Positions 8,536 to 36,428 of a stretch of DNA of 41,624 bases are shown here, in pieces. Under the pieces are notes generated by a model, which had not been told where the DNA came from, did no database searches, and was given only the letters and a program-made list of their open reading frames with translations. The position numbers and the translations under genes were made by a program. The DNA lies in contig CASICS010000004.1 of NCBI GenBank assembly GCA_949373255.1, positions 1 to 41,624 on the forward strand. The letters are read 5' to 3'. The DNA is from an uncultured SAR86 cluster bacterium. Its GTDB lineage: Bacteria; Pseudomonadota; Gammaproteobacteria; Magnimaribacterales; AG-339-G14. Numbering within the stretch: position 1 is the first letter of the stretch; every line of letters starts with the position of its first letter.

Positions 8536-9942
8536 TTAAGACTTAAATTCAGAGACTAGAGTCGATATAGACTCCTTAGCATCACCGAATAACATTCTAG
8601 TATTTTCTTTAAGGAATAAAGGATTATCTATACCTGCAAAACCAGATGCCATTGATCTTTTAAGTACAAAAACGGTTTTTGCTCTATCTACCTCAATTAC
8701 TGGCATACCATAAATAGGGCTTCCTTCATTTTCTCTGGCGTCAGGGTTAACCACATCATTTGCCCCTATCACAACACATACATCAACAGTTTCCATGATT
8801 GGATTTACATCATCAGGTTCAACTAACAGATCATATGAAACATTAGCTTCTGCTAATAAAACATTCATGTGACCTGGCATACGACCGGCTACTGGATGAA
8901 TTCCATATTTAACATCACAACCATTTCCTTCTAGAAGCTCTCCAAGCTCTCTGACAGAGTGTTGAGCTTGAGAAACAGCCATTCCATAACCTGGAACAAA
9001 TAGGACTGAATTAGCCGCTTCTAATATTAGATATGAATCAGCGACGTTAATGGGTTTAACTTCTCCTTGTATCTCTGTAGATCCTCCAGCAGAGGATTTA
9101 CTCGGCGCTCCAAAGCCCCCGAACAAAACGTTTGTAAGAGACCTATTCATAGCCTTACACATAATCTGAGTTAAGATAACTCCACTTGCTCCAACTAATG
9201 ATCCAGCAACTATTAAAACATTATTATTAATAACAAAACCTGCTGAAGCTGCTGCCAACCCTGAATAACTGTTCAAAAGGGCAATAATTACAGGCATATC
9301 TGCTCCACCAATAGGAGCTGTTAAAAGAATTCCCAATATCAAGGCGACTAAAATCAGTGACGCTAAAATTGCTAGTTTTGATATTCCTAGAATGCCGGTA
9401 TCGATGATTATTTCTGCACTTAAAGCTAGACCTAACAATAAGAAGGTTATAAGTACAATTCTCTGGCCAAAAAATAAAAAAGGTTTCCCATCTAAGATTT
9501 CTGAAAGCTTTCCAAAAGCCAATAAACTTCCTGAAAAGGTAACTCCACCAATTAAAATTGTTAAAGATACAGCTGATAAAGCTATGAAGTTAAGAGCATT
9601 AAAATTAAGAAATTCTGCTGAGCCTACTAATAGACTAGCTATGCCGCCAAAACCATTAAATAAAGCGACTAATTCTGGCATGGTGGTCATTTTTACCGTA
9701 GTTGCTGCTGATGCCCCTACAATTGCTCCAGCAATTAGTGCAATTGATAAGAATTGATAAGAAATAATTGATTGATCTAAAAGAGTAACTGCTATTGCTA
9801 AAAGCATTCCCAAGGATGATATTAAATTTCCTCTTTGTGCTCTTTCTGGATTTCCTAGCATTCTTAAGCCAAAGATAAATAAAATTGATGCACAAATATA
9901 TGCAAAATCTACGAAAAAATCTGATTGAAAAAAATTGCTCAT
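8536..9942 (-). CDS. pntB: NAD(P) transhydrogenase subunit beta
   Basis: Inner-membrane subunit that carries the NADP(H) site of the proton-translocating transhydrogenase. The 468-residue protein has about eight to nine hydrophobic segments in its first 270 residues and a soluble dIII domain at the C-terminus with PGYGMAVSQAQH, HPVAGRMPGHMNVLLAEA, DLLVEPDDVNP and GANDVVNPDAR, all diagnostic. The start overlaps the preceding subunit by 4 bases (ATGA). A 101-residue open frame at 9656-9961 on the same strand is an out-of-frame shadow of this gene. Confidence 0.97.
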   Translation of the reverse strand: MSNFFQSDFFVDFAYICASILFIFGLRMLGNPERAQRGNLISSLGMLLAIAVTLLDQSIISYQFLSIALIAGAIVGASAATTVKMTTMPELVALFNGFGGIASLLVGSAEFLNFNALNFIALSAVSLTILIGGVTFSGSLLAFGKLSEILDGKPFLFFGQRIVLITFLLLGLALSAEIIIDTGILGISKLAILASLILVALILGILLTAPIGGADMPVIIALLNSYSGLAAASAGFVINNNVLIVAGSLVGASGVILTQIMCKAMNRSLTNVLFGGFGAPSKSSAGGSTEIQGEVKPINVADSYLILEAANSVLFVPGYGMAVSQAQHSVRELGELLEGNGCDVKYGIHPVAGRMPGHMNVLLAEANVSYDLLVEPDDVNPIMETVDVCVVIGANDVVNPDARENEGSPIYGMPVIEVDRAKTVFVLKRSMASGFAGIDNPLFLKENTRMLFGDAKESISTLVSEFKS

Positions 9943-27942: not shown

Positions 27943-29142
27943 TTAAGATTTGTATGCTTCAAAAAGGCCAGTAGCACCCATACCACCACCAACACACATG
28001 GTAACAATACCGTACTTTCCACCTCTTCTATTAAGTTCTCTAGCCAAGTGACCTACTTGTCTAGAACCTGTCATACCGAATGGGTGACCAATTGAAATTG
28101 ACCCACCATTAACGTTAAGCTTGTCTTCAGGAAGATTGAGCTTGTCTCTGATGTAAACAACTTGAGAAGCAAAAGCTTCGTTAAGCTCCCATAAATCTAT
28201 ATCTTCTACTGATAAACCAGCAGATTTTAATAACTTTGGAATTGAATATACTGGTCCGATCCCCATTTCGTCTGGCTGACAACCTACAGTTGTAAAACCT
28301 CTGAAATAAAGCATAGGCTCTAATCCAAGTTCAAGAGCTTTTTCTTCACTCATAACAAGTGTTACAGAAGCTCCGTCTGAAAGCTGCGAAGAGTTACCTG
28401 CAGTAACTGTTCCGTTTTCAGGATCAAACACTGGTTTTAAAGATTGTAAGCCTTCCATAGTAGTTGTTGGACGGTTGCAATCATCTTTATCAACAGTAAC
28501 TTCAACATCTTTAGCTTCACCAGTCTCTTTATTGTAGAGTTTCATGGTAGTAGTCATTGGCACGATTTCATCATCGTAATAACCTGCTTCTTGTGCAGCA
28601 GCAGTTCTTTGTTGACTGGCTAAAGCAATTTCATCTTGCGCTTCTCTAGAGACGTTATAACGTTTAGCAACAGTTTCAGCGGTATGACCCATAGCCATAT
28701 ATATACCTGGCATTTCAGCAGCAAGCTTATCGTTGACATACATGTTCATATTCAAACCAGCTTCGCCTAAAACGGTACTGATACTTTCAACACCACCAGC
28801 TAGCATACAATCTGAATGCCCACTAGCCACTTGATTACAAGCCATAGCAATTGAATTCAAACCAGATGAGCAATAACGATTAATCGTTGTTCCGCCCGTT
28901 TCAATTGGAAGCTTAGATAATACTGCAGCATTTCTCGCAATATTGTGTCCTTGAGCTCCCTCAGGGTTACCGCAACCCAAAATAAGATCTTCTACCAAAG
29001 CCGGATCAACCTTAGGGTTTCTTTCCATGATGGCATCAATTAAGTGAGCAACCATATCGTCGGCTCTAGTGATATTAAAACCACCTCTGTGAGATTTCGC
29101 TAAACCGGTTCTAACGCTATCTATTATTACTACGTTTTTCAT
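27943..29142 (-). CDS. Acetyl-CoA acyltransferase / C-acetyltransferase (thiolase)
   Basis: A 399-residue thiolase that cleaves or forms 3-ketoacyl-CoA. The acyl-accepting cysteine is C91 in NRYCSSGLNSI, the general base H353 in GHPFGMTGSR and the second cysteine C383 in CVGGGMGATG. RTGLAKSHRG at the N-terminus and the loop AEMPGIYMAMGHTAE resemble degradative thiolases (FadA/FadI-like or catabolic types) more than PhaA. No fadB partner is beside it. A good AGGAG ribosome binding site stands before the ATG at 29142. Whether it serves fatty acid, sterol or amino acid breakdown cannot be told; lying between thiL and the receptors it may be an inserted gene. Confidence 0.92.
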   Translation of the reverse strand: MKNVVIIDSVRTGLAKSHRGGFNITRADDMVAHLIDAIMERNPKVDPALVEDLILGCGNPEGAQGHNIARNAAVLSKLPIETGGTTINRYCSSGLNSIAMACNQVASGHSDCMLAGGVESISTVLGEAGLNMNMYVNDKLAAEMPGIYMAMGHTAETVAKRYNVSREAQDEIALASQQRTAAAQEAGYYDDEIVPMTTTMKLYNKETGEAKDVEVTVDKDDCNRPTTTMEGLQSLKPVFDPENGTVTAGNSSQLSDGASVTLVMSEEKALELGLEPMLYFRGFTTVGCQPDEMGIGPVYSIPKLLKSAGLSVEDIDLWELNEAFASQVVYIRDKLNLPEDKLNVNGGSISIGHPFGMTGSRQVGHLARELNRRGGKYGIVTMCVGGGMGATGLFEAYKS

Positions 29143-29215: not shown

Positions 29216-29251
29216 ATGTTTATATTCGTCTTAACCTAATTTTAAATGCAA

Positions 29252-29276
29252 AAAAGCCCTGTAAAACAGGGCTTTT
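29252..29276 (-). terminator. Rho-independent terminator of first receptor gene
   Basis: A perfect 10-base-pair inverted repeat (AAAAGCCCTG / CAGGGCTTTT) with a 5-base loop, starting 17 bases after the receptor stop at 29293. Read on the minus strand it ends in a run of T. The stem core is the same as in the terminator of the second receptor. Confidence 0.85.
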
Positions 29277-29291
29277 CTGAGGTTAAGATTG

Positions 29292-29487
29292 ATTAGAAGT
29301 TAATTCCAAAATCTAAACCAGCTCGCATCCCTTCAGAGTAAGTTACGAATATAACTGCACCCTGTAAGTTACTTGTTCTATTAGTAGCTGTCATTTGACG
29401 TTTGTCAGCTAAGTTTTTAGCCCACAAGTTCAAGTACCAGTCACCTTGGCTTGGCTCATAAGTAGCATTCAGATCAATGTACTCTTG
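29292..29487. repeat. Near-identical 3' end shared by the two receptor genes (copy 1)
   Basis: 196 bases that match 32566-32761 with a single difference (A at 29380, G at 32654), covering the last 64 codons and stop of each receptor. Similarity drops sharply at 29488. The codon changed by the single difference is synonymous, since the two protein ends are identical. Confidence 0.9.
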
Positions 29488-32349
29488 CGCACCAGTATTA
29501 AAACGTGCGTTGTTGTACAAATCTCCCGCGAATGCATCTTTGAAAGAATATCCCAATCGAACCGCACCACTACCGTTCATACCTTCGTATAATTGCGTTA
29601 AGCTCACAGTTGCTTCCATGTCAGAAACTCCAGGAATTTTATTCCCACCGAGTTCTTTCATGACAGCACCGGTTAATGAGTTAGCGCCAGCCGGAGCAAG
29701 CGTACTACCTAATATCTGCGCTAATCCAGTTGGATTCATCAAGATGTTTCCGGCACTAGTAACGTTGTAAGCCGAAACAGCACAACCAGTTAAGCCAGCA
29801 GCATTACAAGTACCTAATACAGCTGCTTGTCTAGTTGCAGCTTGAGTTGCAGTAAACGCTGTAGTTACACCAACATTTGATGCGTCCTGTAAGTGCGCAA
29901 TTAATCCAGCGGCAGTTAAAGATCCACTCCAAGAAGTTGATTGGTCTGGGTTGTGTGGGTCGATAGATTTAGAACCTACTGAGACCAATGAGTTACCCGG
30001 ACCTCTTCCTTCTCCTGAAGACGAAGTTACAAGTTCACTGTCAGTCAACAAGACGTTAGCTGCTAGAGCTAATGAATCGGTTATGAAGAACTGCGTATCA
30101 AGCTGTAAACCTTGGTGAAGAATATCATGAGGTTCGGTATAAGCAGAGTTTCCTCTAATTAAAGAATAAGGCGAATCCGCTTGTTCGTGTCTGAATATGT
30201 TTGCATTCAGTTTCAAACGACCATCCATGAGGATATTTTTAGAACCCACTTCGTAAGAAGTAGCTTTTGATCCTTTAAACTTTGAACCATCTGGATTTGC
30301 ACCACCGGCACGGTCACCCGTAGTCATTGATACATAAGCCATGCCTTGATCGTAAGAATACTGTAAGACACCTTTATAAGTGTCTGCATAGTTATTTTCC
30401 CACGCTAAAACATGAGCAGCTTGCCAGCAAGCTTCATAATTAGCTTCACGACATACAGATGTATTGGAATTTCTTAGGCCTCGTGCATAACCATTGGATT
30501 TAACACCAATGTTATAAGCACCATCGGAAAGTCCATTAACTGTTCTTGTTTCGAATCTGTTTTCCATGTAACGAGCACCTAACGTAAGTTTCCAGTTATC
30601 TAAGAACGTATAGTAATACTCACCAAATATGGCTTTAGACTCTGTTGCTGTTCGTTGGTCATTGATTAACCCACCCGCTTGGTGCGGCATAGATTTAGCA
30701 CAAGCTCCACCATTTTTATCTACCTTAGCAACACCAGCTGCATCATTTCCAACATATGTTCCTGCACAACCACCAATAATGGTAGAGACAAGGGTATCGG
30801 CGACTGCTTTAACACCAGCAGCAGTAATATCACCACCAGCTGCTACAATTGCATTGCCAAGTGGAGTAGCGGCGCTAGCTAAAACAGCAGCTAAAGTGCC
30901 ATAAAAAGACTGTCCACCGTAACCATCTAATGCGCCACCAGTGAACATTCCAGATAAAGGATGGTTTTTGAAGTCATTCATTAATAGGTAAGCCGTAGTT
31001 TGAATCGTGTATTCATTGATACCGGTATCGTTATCATTGTATGCACCAACCACAAAGTTGTGATTATCAAAATCAGATGTAACGTTTATTTCAAATGCAT
31101 TTGATTCATTTTGTGCTCTTGAACATTCAGAAGCTCCAGCAAATTGAATGTTGGTTTGTGTTCCAAAACATGTAGTCTCTAAACTAGCAATTGTCATCGT
31201 TCCACGCGGTTGAAAACCTGAACCAATTTTCGATGCAGTTCCACCGATTACTGAGTCGCCGTGATCGTTATCATCTACTTGGTAGTAGGCGGTATTTGAG
31301 TTGGTTGCTTTAACTCTAAGTTCTAAGTTACCAGGAGCAACATTGAAACCAGTGATGTATTCCAATTGAGCTAAAGAACTTTTTTGTTGTCTTTTAGCAT
31401 CGTAAGATTTTCTGACCGTATTGATGTCTTTAGATCTAGCAGTATCGGCAGCCGCTAAAGTATCAGTTCCAGTAGTAATGAAAGTCAATGTATCAAAAGT
31501 ATTACTCACAGTTCCCGATGTAAACACAGGTCTGTTTATGTGCGCTTCAACATTTTGGGTATCAGGAGAACAACCAAAGAAAGATTCTCTATTACAAGAA
31601 GCCGTTCCAAGGTTCAAACGATTATCGTTGATACTGTAACTATCATAGTTAAAATTAAGCTGATTGTTGTCATCAATTGCCCAGTCCAATGAAAGTCTGG
31701 CACCAAAAGCGTCACGATTATCAATCATGTTTCCAGTTCCTAAGTTATTTACTACACCATCTTTATCGAACTTGGATATAGCTATTCTTCCTTGAACGTT
31801 TGCAGCAACACCAAAATCTGCTGCCGTTTTAACCATTGTGTAACCGTCTTCACCAACTGAAGCTTTTAAGTAGTTTCCAGCTCCAGGTCGAGCAGAAATT
31901 AAATTCATTAAACCAGTAGTTGTATTTCTTCCGTATAAAGTTCCTTGCGGTCCTTCTAGAATCTCAAGACGCGCAGCATCTAAGAAACCAACTTCAGCCC
32001 AAGCACTTTGACTTGCTGAATGGCCATTTAACTGAAGGTCGGCGGCAGCTACTGTGGCAGCTCCTATTCCAGGTACTACTAAACCTCTCAGTTTGATTCC
32101 AACACCGGAACCGATTCCGTTAGAAAAAGAAACACCGGTAGTACTGTCAGCTAGATCAGCCGCAGTTTCTATATGTTGTTCCATTAAGTCTTCACCAGTT
32201 ATGGCTTGAACAGACAGAGCAATATCTTGCAGAGACTCTGCTTGTCTTGCCGCTGTTACAGTGACTTCTTCAACAGTCTGCGCGAAAGCCGACACATGGA
32301 AACCCATGGCCAGTACGACAGCTGTCATTAAATTAAAAAAACGTTTCAT
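29293..32349 (-). CDS. TonB-dependent outer membrane receptor (paralogue 1)
   Basis: A 1018-residue receptor. I start it at the ATG at 32349, which follows a strong GGGAGGAG site; the frame runs 21 codons further without support. Residues 1-24 are a signal peptide ending AFAQ, followed by a TonB-box-like TVEEVTVTA. The plug domain (about 35-155) has IKLRGLVVPGIG and EGPQGTLYGRNTTTGLMN. The rest is a 22-strand barrel by family, ending NLADKRQM and a terminal phenylalanine (GINF), the outer membrane assembly signal. It has ten cysteines in five close pairs, all in the predicted loops. The substrate is unknown. It is a tandem paralogue of the next receptor. Confidence 0.93.
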   Translation of the reverse strand: MKRFFNLMTAVVLAMGFHVSAFAQTVEEVTVTAARQAESLQDIALSVQAITGEDLMEQHIETAADLADSTTGVSFSNGIGSGVGIKLRGLVVPGIGAATVAAADLQLNGHSASQSAWAEVGFLDAARLEILEGPQGTLYGRNTTTGLMNLISARPGAGNYLKASVGEDGYTMVKTAADFGVAANVQGRIAISKFDKDGVVNNLGTGNMIDNRDAFGARLSLDWAIDDNNQLNFNYDSYSINDNRLNLGTASCNRESFFGCSPDTQNVEAHINRPVFTSGTVSNTFDTLTFITTGTDTLAAADTARSKDINTVRKSYDAKRQQKSSLAQLEYITGFNVAPGNLELRVKATNSNTAYYQVDDNDHGDSVIGGTASKIGSGFQPRGTMTIASLETTCFGTQTNIQFAGASECSRAQNESNAFEINVTSDFDNHNFVVGAYNDNDTGINEYTIQTTAYLLMNDFKNHPLSGMFTGGALDGYGGQSFYGTLAAVLASAATPLGNAIVAAGGDITAAGVKAVADTLVSTIIGGCAGTYVGNDAAGVAKVDKNGGACAKSMPHQAGGLINDQRTATESKAIFGEYYYTFLDNWKLTLGARYMENRFETRTVNGLSDGAYNIGVKSNGYARGLRNSNTSVCREANYEACWQAAHVLAWENNYADTYKGVLQYSYDQGMAYVSMTTGDRAGGANPDGSKFKGSKATSYEVGSKNILMDGRLKLNANIFRHEQADSPYSLIRGNSAYTEPHDILHQGLQLDTQFFITDSLALAANVLLTDSELVTSSSGEGRGPGNSLVSVGSKSIDPHNPDQSTSWSGSLTAAGLIAHLQDASNVGVTTAFTATQAATRQAAVLGTCNAAGLTGCAVSAYNVTSAGNILMNPTGLAQILGSTLAPAGANSLTGAVMKELGGNKIPGVSDMEATVSLTQLYEGMNGSGAVRLGYSFKDAFAGDLYNNARFNTGAQEYIDLNATYEPSQGDWYLNLWAKNLADKRQMTATNRTSNLQGAVIFVTYSEGMRAGLDFGINF

Positions 32350-32468
32350 TGACTCCTCCCAATTTGAGTACAAATAGTTATAAAGAAACAAACTTTCTGT
32401 TTCTAAATCCATTTATATTGAAAGGTTGAAGCGTCCTGCTCCAAGTAAAAATGTCTCCCCTTAACTTA

Positions 32469-32497
32469 ATACTAACTCAGCTTTTTTTATAAGACAA
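32469..32497 (-). promoter_or_regulatory. Promoter of first receptor gene
   Basis: Minus strand TTGTCT (32497-32492), 17-base spacer and TAGTAT (32474-32469), each four of six matches. TGAGTTAGTAT here corresponds to TGAGTTATTAT before the second receptor, and GTTAAGGGGAG downstream to GTTAAGGGAG. The predicted leader is about 113 bases, equal to that of the second receptor. The shared layout is the main support. Confidence 0.45.
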
Positions 32498-32524
32498 GCA
32501 TTCGTGTGTTAATAACCCAAACAA

Positions 32525-32550
32525 AAAAGCCCTGTCGAGACAGGGCTTTT
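32525..32550 (-). terminator. Rho-independent terminator of second receptor gene
   Basis: A 12-base inverted repeat (AAAAGCCCTGTC / GACAGGGCTTTT) closing on a very short loop, read on the minus strand into a T run, starting 17 bases after the stop of the second receptor at 32567. It shares the stem core of the first receptor's terminator, but the loop and inner stem differ. Confidence 0.85.
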
Positions 32551-32565
32551 CTGAAGTAAAGACTA

Positions 32566-32761
32566 ATTAGAAGTTAATTCCAAAATCTAAACCAGCTCGC
32601 ATCCCTTCAGAGTAAGTTACGAATATAACTGCACCCTGTAAGTTACTTGTTCTGTTAGTAGCTGTCATTTGACGTTTGTCAGCTAAGTTTTTAGCCCACA
32701 AGTTCAAGTACCAGTCACCTTGGCTTGGCTCATAAGTAGCATTCAGATCAATGTACTCTTG
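32566..32761. repeat. Near-identical 3' end shared by the two receptor genes (copy 2)
   Basis: Partner of 29292-29487, with one difference in 196 bases. The flanks diverge at once on the gene side (from 32762), which suggests gene conversion or a short recombination tract and not simple recent duplication. Confidence 0.9.
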
Positions 32762-35611
32762 TGAAGCTGTTTTAAAACGTTCGTTGTTATAAAAATCTCC
32801 ATAAAAGTCATCTTTGAAAGAATATGCTAAACGAACCGCTCCACTACCACCAGCACCTTGATAAAATTGCGATAAGCTCACAGTTGCTTCCATGTCAGAA
32901 ACTCCGGGAACTTTATTCCCACCAATTTCTTTCATGACTGATCCAGTTGCAGTAGCAGTTCCATTAACGCCTACTAATGCAGCTAGTCCCGTAGGATTCA
33001 TCAAGATGTTTCCTTTGTTAGTGATGTTATAAGCCGAAACACCACAAGCAGATGCACTTACGGCTGCATTACATGCAGTTCTTGCATTAGATATTGCAGT
33101 TGTAGCAGCTGAGTTTGATAACCCGCCACCAGCAGCACTTTCTAAGTAAGCAACCGCCGCAAGGTCTGTATTTTGTGCTTGAGTATTTCCTCCTGGAGTT
33201 GCTGCACTCACTATGGCACCACTCCAACCAGTTGCTTGGTCTGGGTTGTGAGGGTCGATAGATTTAGAACCTACTGAGACCAATGAGTTACCCGGACCTC
33301 TTCCTTCTCCTGTAGTCGAAGTCACAAATTCACTGTCCGTCATCAAGACATTAGCAGCTAGAACTAGAGAGTCAGTCACAAAGAACTGCGTATCAAGCTG
33401 TAACCCTTGGTGAATGATGTCATGCGGTTCGGTGTATGCTGAGTTAACTCTAATTATAGAATAGGAAGCATCGTCTTGTTCGTGCCTGAATAAGGTTGCA
33501 TTCAGTTTCAAACGGCTATCCATGAGGATGTTTTTAGAACCTATTTCGTAAGAAGTGGCTTTTGATCCTTTAAATTTTGAACCATCTGGGTTTGCACCGC
33601 CAGCTCGGTTACCCGTAGTCATTGATACGTAAGCCATGCCTTGGTCGTAAGAGTACTGTAGAACTCCTTTATAAGTGTCGGCGTAGTTTTTATCAGTAGC
33701 TAGGATATGAGCAGCTTGCCAACAAGCTTCAAAATCAGCTTGATTACATACATTTGTATTTGAATTTCTCAATCCTCTTGCATATCCATTGGATTTAACA
33801 CCAATGTTGTAAGCGCTGTCAGAAAGTCCATTAACTGTTCTTGTTTCAAATCTATCGTCCATGTAACGCGCTCCAAGAGTTAACTTAAAGTTATCCATAA
33901 ACGTATAGTAATACTCACCATATATAGCTCTGCTGTCTATTGTAGTTCTTTGGTCATTGATTAACCCACCAGCATTTTTTGGCATAGTCTTTATGCAAGT
34001 ACCACCTTTCTCATCCGGTGTGCTACCAGCCAGTCCAGCACATTGTCCAATTATTGTATTTACGAACGTATCAGTTACAGTTTTAACTCCAGCGGCAGTG
34101 ATATCACCACCAGCTGTTGCTATTGCGCCTCCTAAGGCTACTGCATTAGCTCCAATTTGGCCTGCTAAAACACCGTAAAAATTTTGTCCACCGTAACCAT
34201 CTAATGCGCCACCAGTGAACATGCCAGATAGAGGGTGCTTGCTGAAATCATTCAATAGTAAGTAACCCGTAGTTTGAATAGAGTAATCATTGATGCCTTT
34301 AGAATTATCCATGTATGCACCAACCACAAAGTTGTGATTCTCAAAATCAGATGCAACATTTATTTCAAAGGCATTTGTTTCAGTTTCAACTCTTGAACAT
34401 TCAGTAGATCCAGAATATTGAACGTTGGTTTCTGTACCAAAACAATTAGTTTCTAAACTAGCAATCGTCATGCCCATGGGCTGGAGAGCAGATCTAATTG
34501 TTCCTGCAGCTCCAAGACTAGCTGAATCGGTGTGATCGTTATCATCAACTTGATAATAGCTATTTTGTGTATTTGTTGCTTTAACTCTAAGTTCTAAATC
34601 ACCAGGAGCAACGCTCAAGCCAGTGATGTATTCCAATTGAGTTGCAGAAAGTTTTTGTTGTCTTTTAGGATCGTATGATTTTCTGACCGTATTGATGTCC
34701 GTTGACCTAGTAGTATCCAAACCTATCAGTTGATCGGTTCCATTAGAAATGAAAGTTAAATTATCAAAAGTATTACTTACTGTTCCGGAAATGAATACAG
34801 GTCTTTGAATATGAGCTTCTACGTTTGTTGTGTCTGGATGACAACCAAAGAAAGCGTCTCTATTACAAGATGATACTCCTAGATTTAAACGATTATCGTT
34901 AATACTGTAACTGTCGTGGTTAAAATTCAATTGATTGTTGTCATCAATTGCCCAATCCAATGAAAGTCTGGCACCAAAAGCATCACGGTTATCGATCATA
35001 TTGCCGGTACCAGTATTTTTTACTGTACCGTCTTTATCGAACTTGGATATAGCTATTCTTCCTTGAATGTTTGCAGCAACATCAAAATCTGCTGCCGTTT
35101 TAACCATTGTGTAACCGTCTTCACCAACTGATGTTTTGAGGTAGTTACCAGCACCAGGTCGAGCAGAAATTAAATTCATTAAACCAGTGGTTGTATTTCT
35201 TCCGTATAAAGTTCCTTGCGGTCCTTCTAAAATCTCAAGACGCGCTGCATCCAAAAATCCAACTTCAGACCAGGCTGATGCAGAGATTGAATGGCCGTTT
35301 AATTGGGCGTCGGCAGCATCGACTGTTGCAGCTCCTATTCCAGGCACTACTAAACCTCTCAGTTTAATTCCAACACCGGAGCCGATTCCGTTAGAAAAAG
35401 AAACACCAGTAGTTGAGTTTGCTAGATCAGCAGCAGTCTCTATATGTTGTTCCATTAAGTCTTCACCAGTAATGGCTTGGACAGACAAAGCGATATCTTG
35501 CAGAGATTCTGCTTGTCTTGTTGCAGTAACTGTTACTTCTTCAACAGTCTGTGACAAGACTGGGAAAGATAGAACAGCTATGAAGGCTGCGATTAAATAT
35601 TTTTTTAACAT
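32567..35611 (-). CDS. TonB-dependent outer membrane receptor (paralogue 2)
   Basis: A 1014-residue receptor closely similar to paralogue 1. The ATG at 35611 is chosen because AAGGAG stands just before it and the signal peptide (1 to about 21, ending VLSQ) starts there; the frame could extend 50 codons further but runs through the promoter. TVEEVTVTA is the TonB-box candidate, and the plug has the same IKLRGLVVPGIG and EGPQGTLYGRNT. Differences from paralogue 1 cluster in predicted outer loops, notably the segment of about 60 residues near 830-895 and the small-residue loop near 525. It ends in GINF. The same five cysteine pairs are present. It is divergent from nth. Confidence 0.93.
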   Translation of the reverse strand: MLKKYLIAAFIAVLSFPVLSQTVEEVTVTATRQAESLQDIALSVQAITGEDLMEQHIETAADLANSTTGVSFSNGIGSGVGIKLRGLVVPGIGAATVDAADAQLNGHSISASAWSEVGFLDAARLEILEGPQGTLYGRNTTTGLMNLISARPGAGNYLKTSVGEDGYTMVKTAADFDVAANIQGRIAISKFDKDGTVKNTGTGNMIDNRDAFGARLSLDWAIDDNNQLNFNHDSYSINDNRLNLGVSSCNRDAFFGCHPDTTNVEAHIQRPVFISGTVSNTFDNLTFISNGTDQLIGLDTTRSTDINTVRKSYDPKRQQKLSATQLEYITGLSVAPGDLELRVKATNTQNSYYQVDDNDHTDSASLGAAGTIRSALQPMGMTIASLETNCFGTETNVQYSGSTECSRVETETNAFEINVASDFENHNFVVGAYMDNSKGINDYSIQTTGYLLLNDFSKHPLSGMFTGGALDGYGGQNFYGVLAGQIGANAVALGGAIATAGGDITAAGVKTVTDTFVNTIIGQCAGLAGSTPDEKGGTCIKTMPKNAGGLINDQRTTIDSRAIYGEYYYTFMDNFKLTLGARYMDDRFETRTVNGLSDSAYNIGVKSNGYARGLRNSNTNVCNQADFEACWQAAHILATDKNYADTYKGVLQYSYDQGMAYVSMTTGNRAGGANPDGSKFKGSKATSYEIGSKNILMDSRLKLNATLFRHEQDDASYSIIRVNSAYTEPHDIIHQGLQLDTQFFVTDSLVLAANVLMTDSEFVTSTTGEGRGPGNSLVSVGSKSIDPHNPDQATGWSGAIVSAATPGGNTQAQNTDLAAVAYLESAAGGGLSNSAATTAISNARTACNAAVSASACGVSAYNITNKGNILMNPTGLAALVGVNGTATATGSVMKEIGGNKVPGVSDMEATVSLSQFYQGAGGSGAVRLAYSFKDDFYGDFYNNERFKTASQEYIDLNATYEPSQGDWYLNLWAKNLADKRQMTATNRTSNLQGAVIFVTYSEGMRAGLDFGINF

Positions 35612-35730
35612 TACTTTCTTCTCCTTAAGTAAATAAATTAATAAGGAATTAAAAGTTAAATGCAGGAATGGAAAAGGATTTATCATCCATGACCCCCTAA
35701 AAGAAACAGCTACTCCCTTAACCGTGAAGC

Positions 35731-35736
35731 TATAAT
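35731..35736 (+). promoter_or_regulatory. Possible -10 box for nth, overlapping the receptor promoter
   Basis: Perfect TATAAT on the plus strand, about 38 bases before the nth ATG at 35775; the -35 match is poor. It overlaps, on the other strand, the -10 box of the second receptor (35737-35732), so the two polymerases could not bind at once. Confidence 0.35.
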
Positions 35737-35761
35737 AACTCATTATTAAAAAAAAGGGCAA
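35732..35761 (-). promoter_or_regulatory. Promoter of second receptor gene
   Basis: Minus strand TTGCCC (35761-35756, four of six), 18-base spacer and TATTAT (35737-35732, five of six). The leader to the ATG at 35611 is about 114 bases. The TGAGTTA-K-TAT core and the downstream GTTAAGGG match those before the first receptor. Confidence 0.45.
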
Positions 35762-35774
35762 TAATTTTTAACGC

Positions 35775-36428
35775 ATGAACAAAAAAGAAAGAGCTATTCT
35801 TATTGAAAAAGAACTTGGTAGGTTATATAAAAATCCAAAGCCACCGCTCGACTTTAGTAATCCTTTTACTTTATTGATTGCTGTTTTATTGAGCGCTCAA
35901 TGCACAGATGAAAGGGTCAATATTGTTACCAAAGATCTGTTTAAAGAAGCAAAAACTCCAGAGGCAATGGCAGCTTTAGGCAAGAACAAGATATTCTCTT
36001 ATATAAAGACATGTGGGCTGGCGCCAAAAAAATCTAAAGCCATCTTAGAAACTTCAAAGATACTTATAAAAAAATTCAATTCAAAGGTTCCTCAAACTAT
36101 TGAAGAATTAATTACTTTACCGGGCGTTGGTCACAAAACTGCTTCGGTTGTTCTTAATCAAGCTTTTGGTCAAGCTACTTTTGCAGTGGATACGCACATT
36201 CATCGTTTAGCCCAAAGATGGAAACTAACTAATGGCAAAAATGTTGAGCAAACCGAGCGGGATTTAAAAAAATTATTTCCAGAAGGAAATTGGGGTGCTT
36301 TGCATTTGCAAATTATTTTTTATGGAAGAGAATTTTGTGAAGCTAGAAAGTGCTATGGCTTAGAATGTAAATTGTGCACGACTCTCTTTCCAAAGAGAAA
36401 TAGTAAGGTTATAACCAATAAGGCATAG
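35775..36428 (+). CDS. nth: Endonuclease III (DNA glycosylase / AP lyase)
   Basis: Base-excision repair glycosylase for oxidised pyrimidines. The 217-residue protein has [12 protein letters not shown] (38-49), the helix-hairpin-helix [10 protein letters not shown] (115-124) with catalytic K121, and [13 protein letters not shown] with catalytic D139. Four cysteines at the C-terminus (C188, C193, C198, C201) should hold the [4Fe-4S] cluster, but their spacing is C-x4-C-x4-C-x2-C, where the family has C-x6-C-x2-C-x5-C. The DNA was read directly and shows no frameshift. The cluster may be bound differently or weakly. The gene is divergent from the second receptor. Confidence 0.95.

Follow-up and report, generated by a model that had tools for sequence, protein, structure and literature searches.

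The locus analysed here raises the question of why two neighbouring receptor genes that differ over most of their length end almost identically, and whether this likeness was copied from one gene to the other or held in place by selection. The window, that is, the whole stretch of 41,624 nucleotides that was analysed, carries two TonB-dependent receptor genes in tandem on the minus strand: A (29293..32349; 1018 aa), which adjoins a thiolase gene (position t), and B (32567..35611), which adjoins nth (position n). Both start with ATG, preceded by GGGAGGAGTCA in A and by AAGGAGAAGAAAGTA in B. The thiolase gene (27943..29142, minus strand) and nth, encoding an endonuclease III-type glycosylase (35775..36428, plus strand; Pfam HhH-GPD), were both recognised with Pfam and form the two borders of a slot that are conserved in relatives. 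A and B are 78% identical as proteins and 79% identical in the DNA of their bodies, and they are the two receptor copies of this kind in the window genome. A plug, a beta-barrel and a TonB-box-like N-terminus were found in them with Pfam, a fold model and Foldseek: the Pfam cut-off for Plug was passed by both A (1.9e-10) and B (6.5e-11), that for the barrel model was passed by B (2.8e-8; 34.5 vs 27) and missed by A (24.3), and the N-terminal motif EEVTVTA is what I take to be the TonB box.

The original prediction, which had placed a conversion tract at the 3' ends of the two genes, located it exactly: 29292..29487 in A (minus strand; approximately codons 954-1018 and the stop codon) and 32566..32761 in B (minus strand) differ once in 196 bases. 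The sole difference, an A in gene A against a G in gene B at 29380, is silent (Asn, AAT/AAC). It separates two perfectly matching runs, of 107 and of 88 bases, which are the longest two in the pair, both fall inside the tract, and together span -194 to +1 around the stop codon. On the gene side, identity breaks off as abruptly as had been claimed, with 17 differences in the next 76 bases, and past the stop codon the next 30 bases of the two genes differ at 7 positions. Terminator-like hairpins with T-runs, seen in the sequence, lie 3' of A (29250..29277, minus strand) and 3' of B (32523..32551, minus strand) and have diverged from each other. The centres of the genes are indeed more diverged and contain indels, with residues agreeing at 236 of 357 positions in low-confidence loops and at 284 of 334 in barrel strands.

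Silent changes were then compared at codons encoding the same amino acid in both genes, with Met, Trp and the leader excluded. A and B differed silently at one of the last 60 comparable codons and at 200 of 755 overall, and 0 of 10,000 shuffles gave a value as low (P <= 1e-4). By Nei-Gojobori counts, dS between A and B was 0.05 in the tail and 0.41-0.78 in five other segments, so that the uniform identity over the genes that had been named in advance as grounds for giving up recombination was not seen. Purifying selection at the protein or nucleic-acid level might hold the two ends alike without any recombination, and in many comparisons the barrel is indeed best conserved at its C-terminal strands, while the tails of some orthologous pairs are modestly conserved at silent sites. 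The relevant comparison is with G004 (genomes are numbered here, and the window genome is G000), the one close relative that has an A/B-type receptor, present as a single copy equidistant from A and B: tail dS was 0.96 between A and G004 and 1.05 between B and G004, against the 0.05 between A and B, and 19 of 48 and 19 of 47 silent tail codons, respectively, had changed. Because the tail has diverged silently from G004, the view that purifying selection kept the two ends identical was rejected as scarcely credible for this pair. Silent homogenisation is found in a bounded tract and not elsewhere, at sites that are not silently conserved in the single-copy relative, which bears out recent recombination between A and B: the identical 3' ends are very probably a product of gene conversion, not of constraint.

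Nevertheless, part of the contrast between tail and body could come from local constraint or from recombination between strains, since the tails of some other pairs were also somewhat conserved at silent sites (suffixes t and n denote the position in the slot): 14 of 60 codons differed between G008n and G026t (P 1e-4) and 9 of 60 between G011t and G014t (P 3e-4), with milder effects for G011n and G011t (22 of 60, P 0.026) and for B and the G004 receptor (22 of 60, P 0.047). Within A, the plug domain contains a second and weaker homogenised run (31762..31866, minus strand), where 31 codons are silently identical to those of B (P 0.004 once the tail was removed).

The slot was followed through a sample of 30 regions around receptor matches, which was chosen by those matches. 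The full order of thiolase, one or two receptors, and nth was present in 20 of the 30 regions, ten with two receptors and ten with one; of the remainder, nine were other loci, and in one (G023), which lies at a contig end, the nth side was visible. Searching genome contigs with gene A gave no match, and searching them with the family alignment returned distant receptors alone among the 80 loci kept. In G004, a degraded relic between nth and the single receptor (L038, within 8823-9264) ends in FSQGMRVGIDFYLEF followed by a stop codon. Read by eye it resembles a receptor C-terminus, and since this end is kept within the slot, G004 has probably lost the second tandem gene.

The longest identical run lay at the 3' end, with a low chance probability (calculated on the assumption of independent sites), in three of the ten tandem pairs at the slot: besides the window genome these were G008, with 51 bases from -23 to +27 around the stop codon, and G003, with 70 bases from -20 to +49 that include the terminator. 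The terminator shared by the two G003 genes is similar to those at position t in G002 and G005, whose pairs each have two different terminators, and this suggests that copying in G003 ran from t to n. The other seven slot pairs had no long 3' run. Nor did any of the seven tandem receptor pairs outside the slot, and the tract as a general trait of tandem receptors was accordingly rejected. Among 20 pairs compared between genomes, the longest run fell within the last 200 bases or past the stop codon in five, of which four were runs of 18-24 bases and the fifth, of 144 bases, was shared by G002n and G005n, which are close orthologues; in the other 15 it lay elsewhere, seven times in or beside the leader.

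These comparisons also bear on whether the draft assembly, by taking a consensus of strains or collapsing a repeat, made the ends of A and B identical. The window genome is indeed a draft of 26 contigs at 77% completeness, but its gene order, flanks and leaders match those of independent relatives, 3' homogenisation occurs likewise in G008, which is one contig of 1.19 Mb, and the two exact runs in A and B are split by a silent difference. An artefact is consequently very improbable.

What the converted tract encodes was assessed by modelling A with AlphaFold2. In the model, which has a mean pLDDT of 64.8 (approximately 90 in the barrel strands, below 50 in the long loops), the protein folds into a plug and a barrel counted as 22 strands. 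Here the tract corresponds to strands 20-22 and the last extracellular loop and starts beside the loop at 938-954; covering only these, it would homogenise a structural end of the protein, and by this model the large loops are not moved by the tract itself. The suggestion that recombination shuffles ligand-binding loops between otherwise constant barrels is not, then, borne out by the tract. It fares better for the family in another form, in which entire receptor bodies are exchanged while the leader stays fixed, a pattern visible only on comparing relatives. The best Foldseek matches of A were siderophore receptors, namely FyuA (E 1.1e-34), followed by Fiu, FhuE, FhuA and FoxA, with which it shares the plug and the 22-strand barrel; unlike these receptors, to which it is 11-13% identical, A has much longer, low-confidence loops.

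In that comparison, the leaders and bodies of the slot receptors had plainly discordant histories. The leader at position t was taken as promoter region, 5' untranslated region and signal peptide. In G008 and G026, whose flanking genes are 92-95% identical, the two t receptors share 95% of the leader and 57% of the barrel, while G026t and G008n share 49% of the leader and 73% of the barrel; a barrel tree made by a quick method grouped the latter two at 100. In AU tests, barrels rejected the groupings G026t with G008t (p 1.7e-8), G026n with G008n (5.7e-46) and G001t with G002n and G005n (1.9e-5), and leaders rejected G026t with G008n (0.0014), G000n with G000t (0.00027) and G003t with G003n (2.9e-7). 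These p-values are somewhat optimistic, because some of the groups were named after the identity tables had been viewed. The tree of flanking genes joined G008 with G026 and G000 with G004, both at 100/100. Control receptors at other loci were 85% (G008/G026) and 82% (G000/G004) identical in DNA, against 57% and 64% for the slot barrels, whereas in an unswapped pair, G002/G005, the slot barrels (87% and 97%) exceeded the control receptor (78%). The A leader was present at the slot in all eight genomes of the window's genus, and in five of these it was 82-88% identical while the barrels behind it were 43-44% identical to A. Judged from these alignments, slot bodies are evidently exchanged among SAR86-type relatives with the 5' leader staying with its position, and the trees confirm the swap.

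The leader RNA of A (32344..32461, minus strand) is the DNA match found at the slot throughout the genus and is covered by a leader model, R1, built from nine leaders. The leader of B (35612..35761, minus strand) is unlike it (45% identity), and its closest counterparts are the n leaders in G001 (60%) and G006 (55%). Single-strand folds of t-type leaders from two genera had z-scores of -1.55 to -4.06 and put the ribosome-binding site within a helix; truncation before the ribosome-binding site gave a z of +0.06, and n-type leaders and those of genus g3 gave -0.19 to -1.13. In the nine leaders, two pairs had changed on both sides (reached in 59 of 500 shuffles) and 92.2% of cells were paired (18 of 500). 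As this covariation is modest and 12 leaders from two genera gave a weak consensus fold, the leader structure is to be read as a lead. Rfam gave no match at the gathering threshold in the window, and all low-threshold matches over leader and terminator were below their own family's gathering score.

Searching 40 genomes with R1 recovered its nine leaders together with four others. Three of these are t leaders, from G011, G014 and G026, and the fourth, in G023 (L163, 210-330), precedes a different receptor of 828 aa at another locus. Another copy, in G002 (L161, 4332-4437, minus strand; one of the nine), precedes a 160-aa outer-membrane-like protein with a Pfam OMP_b-brl match of E 0.022, which is below the family cut-off. 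Given that the leader also stands before these two proteins, it may mark out a regulon of surface proteins, possibly via CsrA. This protein recognises GGA motifs in the loops of hairpins, and it was found in 16 of 21 genomes searched, a set that includes relatives G000-G012 and G037-G044: in 13/13 of the window's family, 3/3 of f2, 0/3 of f3 and 0/2 of f4. The link of CsrA to the leader RNA is only an idea. It is also conceivable, though rather doubtful, that the slot acts as an expression site, in which a leader RNA folding over the ribosome-binding site would stay fixed together with promoter and signal peptide and control whichever body has recombined in, the shared 3' ends serving as a second crossover anchor.

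Taken together, A and B are very probably paralogues in a fixed slot, where recent homologous recombination copied the tail as one product of a general exchange of bodies under position-bound leaders. RecA-type recombination, with RecA encoded in all 21 genomes searched, would have copied the last ~195 bases of one gene onto the other, in an event that may have been gene conversion or an unequal crossover leaving the same mark. More generally, bodies in the slot would be lost, give way to others or be copied from one position to the other, and each position would meanwhile retain its 5' leader and signal peptide. These would stay put because one crossover falls near the conserved N-terminal TonB box and plug and the other near the C-terminal strands or terminator, the breakpoints being approximate. 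The likely effect would be that an existing expression site gains a new ligand specificity, or a form that phages or bacteriocins do not recognise.

Since bodies at the slot are replaced between lineages, the tail might also have entered one or both genes from the DNA of another strain, as an allelic replacement rather than by copying between A and B within the cell. Near-identical tails nevertheless require a common recent source, for which the neighbouring gene is the nearest, and no third genomic copy was found; entry from another strain is therefore unlikely, and copying between the neighbours remains the preferred reading. Site-specific inversion of the shufflon type was rejected, since no pair of inverted repeats of 30 bases or longer was found in 20000-41624. 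Natural transformation via ComEC was likewise rejected as an entry route for foreign bodies, as the competence channel (PF03772) was found in 0 of the 21 genomes and in 10 of 14 in a control search. It can thus be speculated that such bodies arrive by phage, vesicles or some other route.

Comparable systems are known elsewhere. In the available parts of the accounts of Helicobacter pylori homA/homB and babA/babB (PMC2795765; PMC4552749, citing Pride and Blaser, 2002), concerted evolution is described for paralogous outer-membrane protein genes in which, as here, the 3' segment is homogenised within a strain, the middle varies, and chimeras have 5' regions exchanged between loci. The present case differs in concerning TonB-dependent receptors instead of Bab/Hom, in one tandem slot of a free-living ocean bacterium, and in that its leaders stay with position. 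The Pseudomonas aeruginosa fpvA pyoverdine receptor types and oprD mosaics (PMC2777410) are similar in that a single locus carries very divergent receptor alleles, which are mosaic from clone to clone, and in that bacteriocin pressure is suspected; unlike the slot, neither a tandem pair nor 3' conversion is described in the accessible text of that account.

For SAR86, the portions available report that TonB-dependent transporters are abundant (PMC11582366) and that a hypervariable region contains glycosyltransferases and other outer-membrane modification genes (PMC3569297). This region shares surface-related variability with the slot but, in the same portions, holds no receptor slot (PMC3569297). 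A literature search combining SAR86 with gene conversion found nothing. Among records on gene conversion with TonB-dependent receptors, outer membrane and recombination, the subject was absent from titles and abstract openings, and those on SAR86 with TonB, hypervariable region or genomic islands showed no such slot at the same depth. The phenomenon is thus known in kind, and the SAR86 slot with its position-bound leaders appears new within the literature searched. If true, swapping of bodies behind a constant leader would explain how small genomes change uptake, and how the entry of phages or bacteriocins changes, without new regulation, and the slot would be a precise place to seek recombination in ocean reads.

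The assignment of the window genome and its relatives to SAR86 at the level of the order is an inference from kinship: AG-390-L13, which is a named record, and G056 are 82-93% identical in their two longest, near-collinear DNA matches, and G056 is placed in the same order as the window genome. At another tandem receptor locus (L048, L129), within matches that are otherwise 82-93% identical, the receptors of AG-390-L13 and G056 showed 61% and 73% DNA identity.
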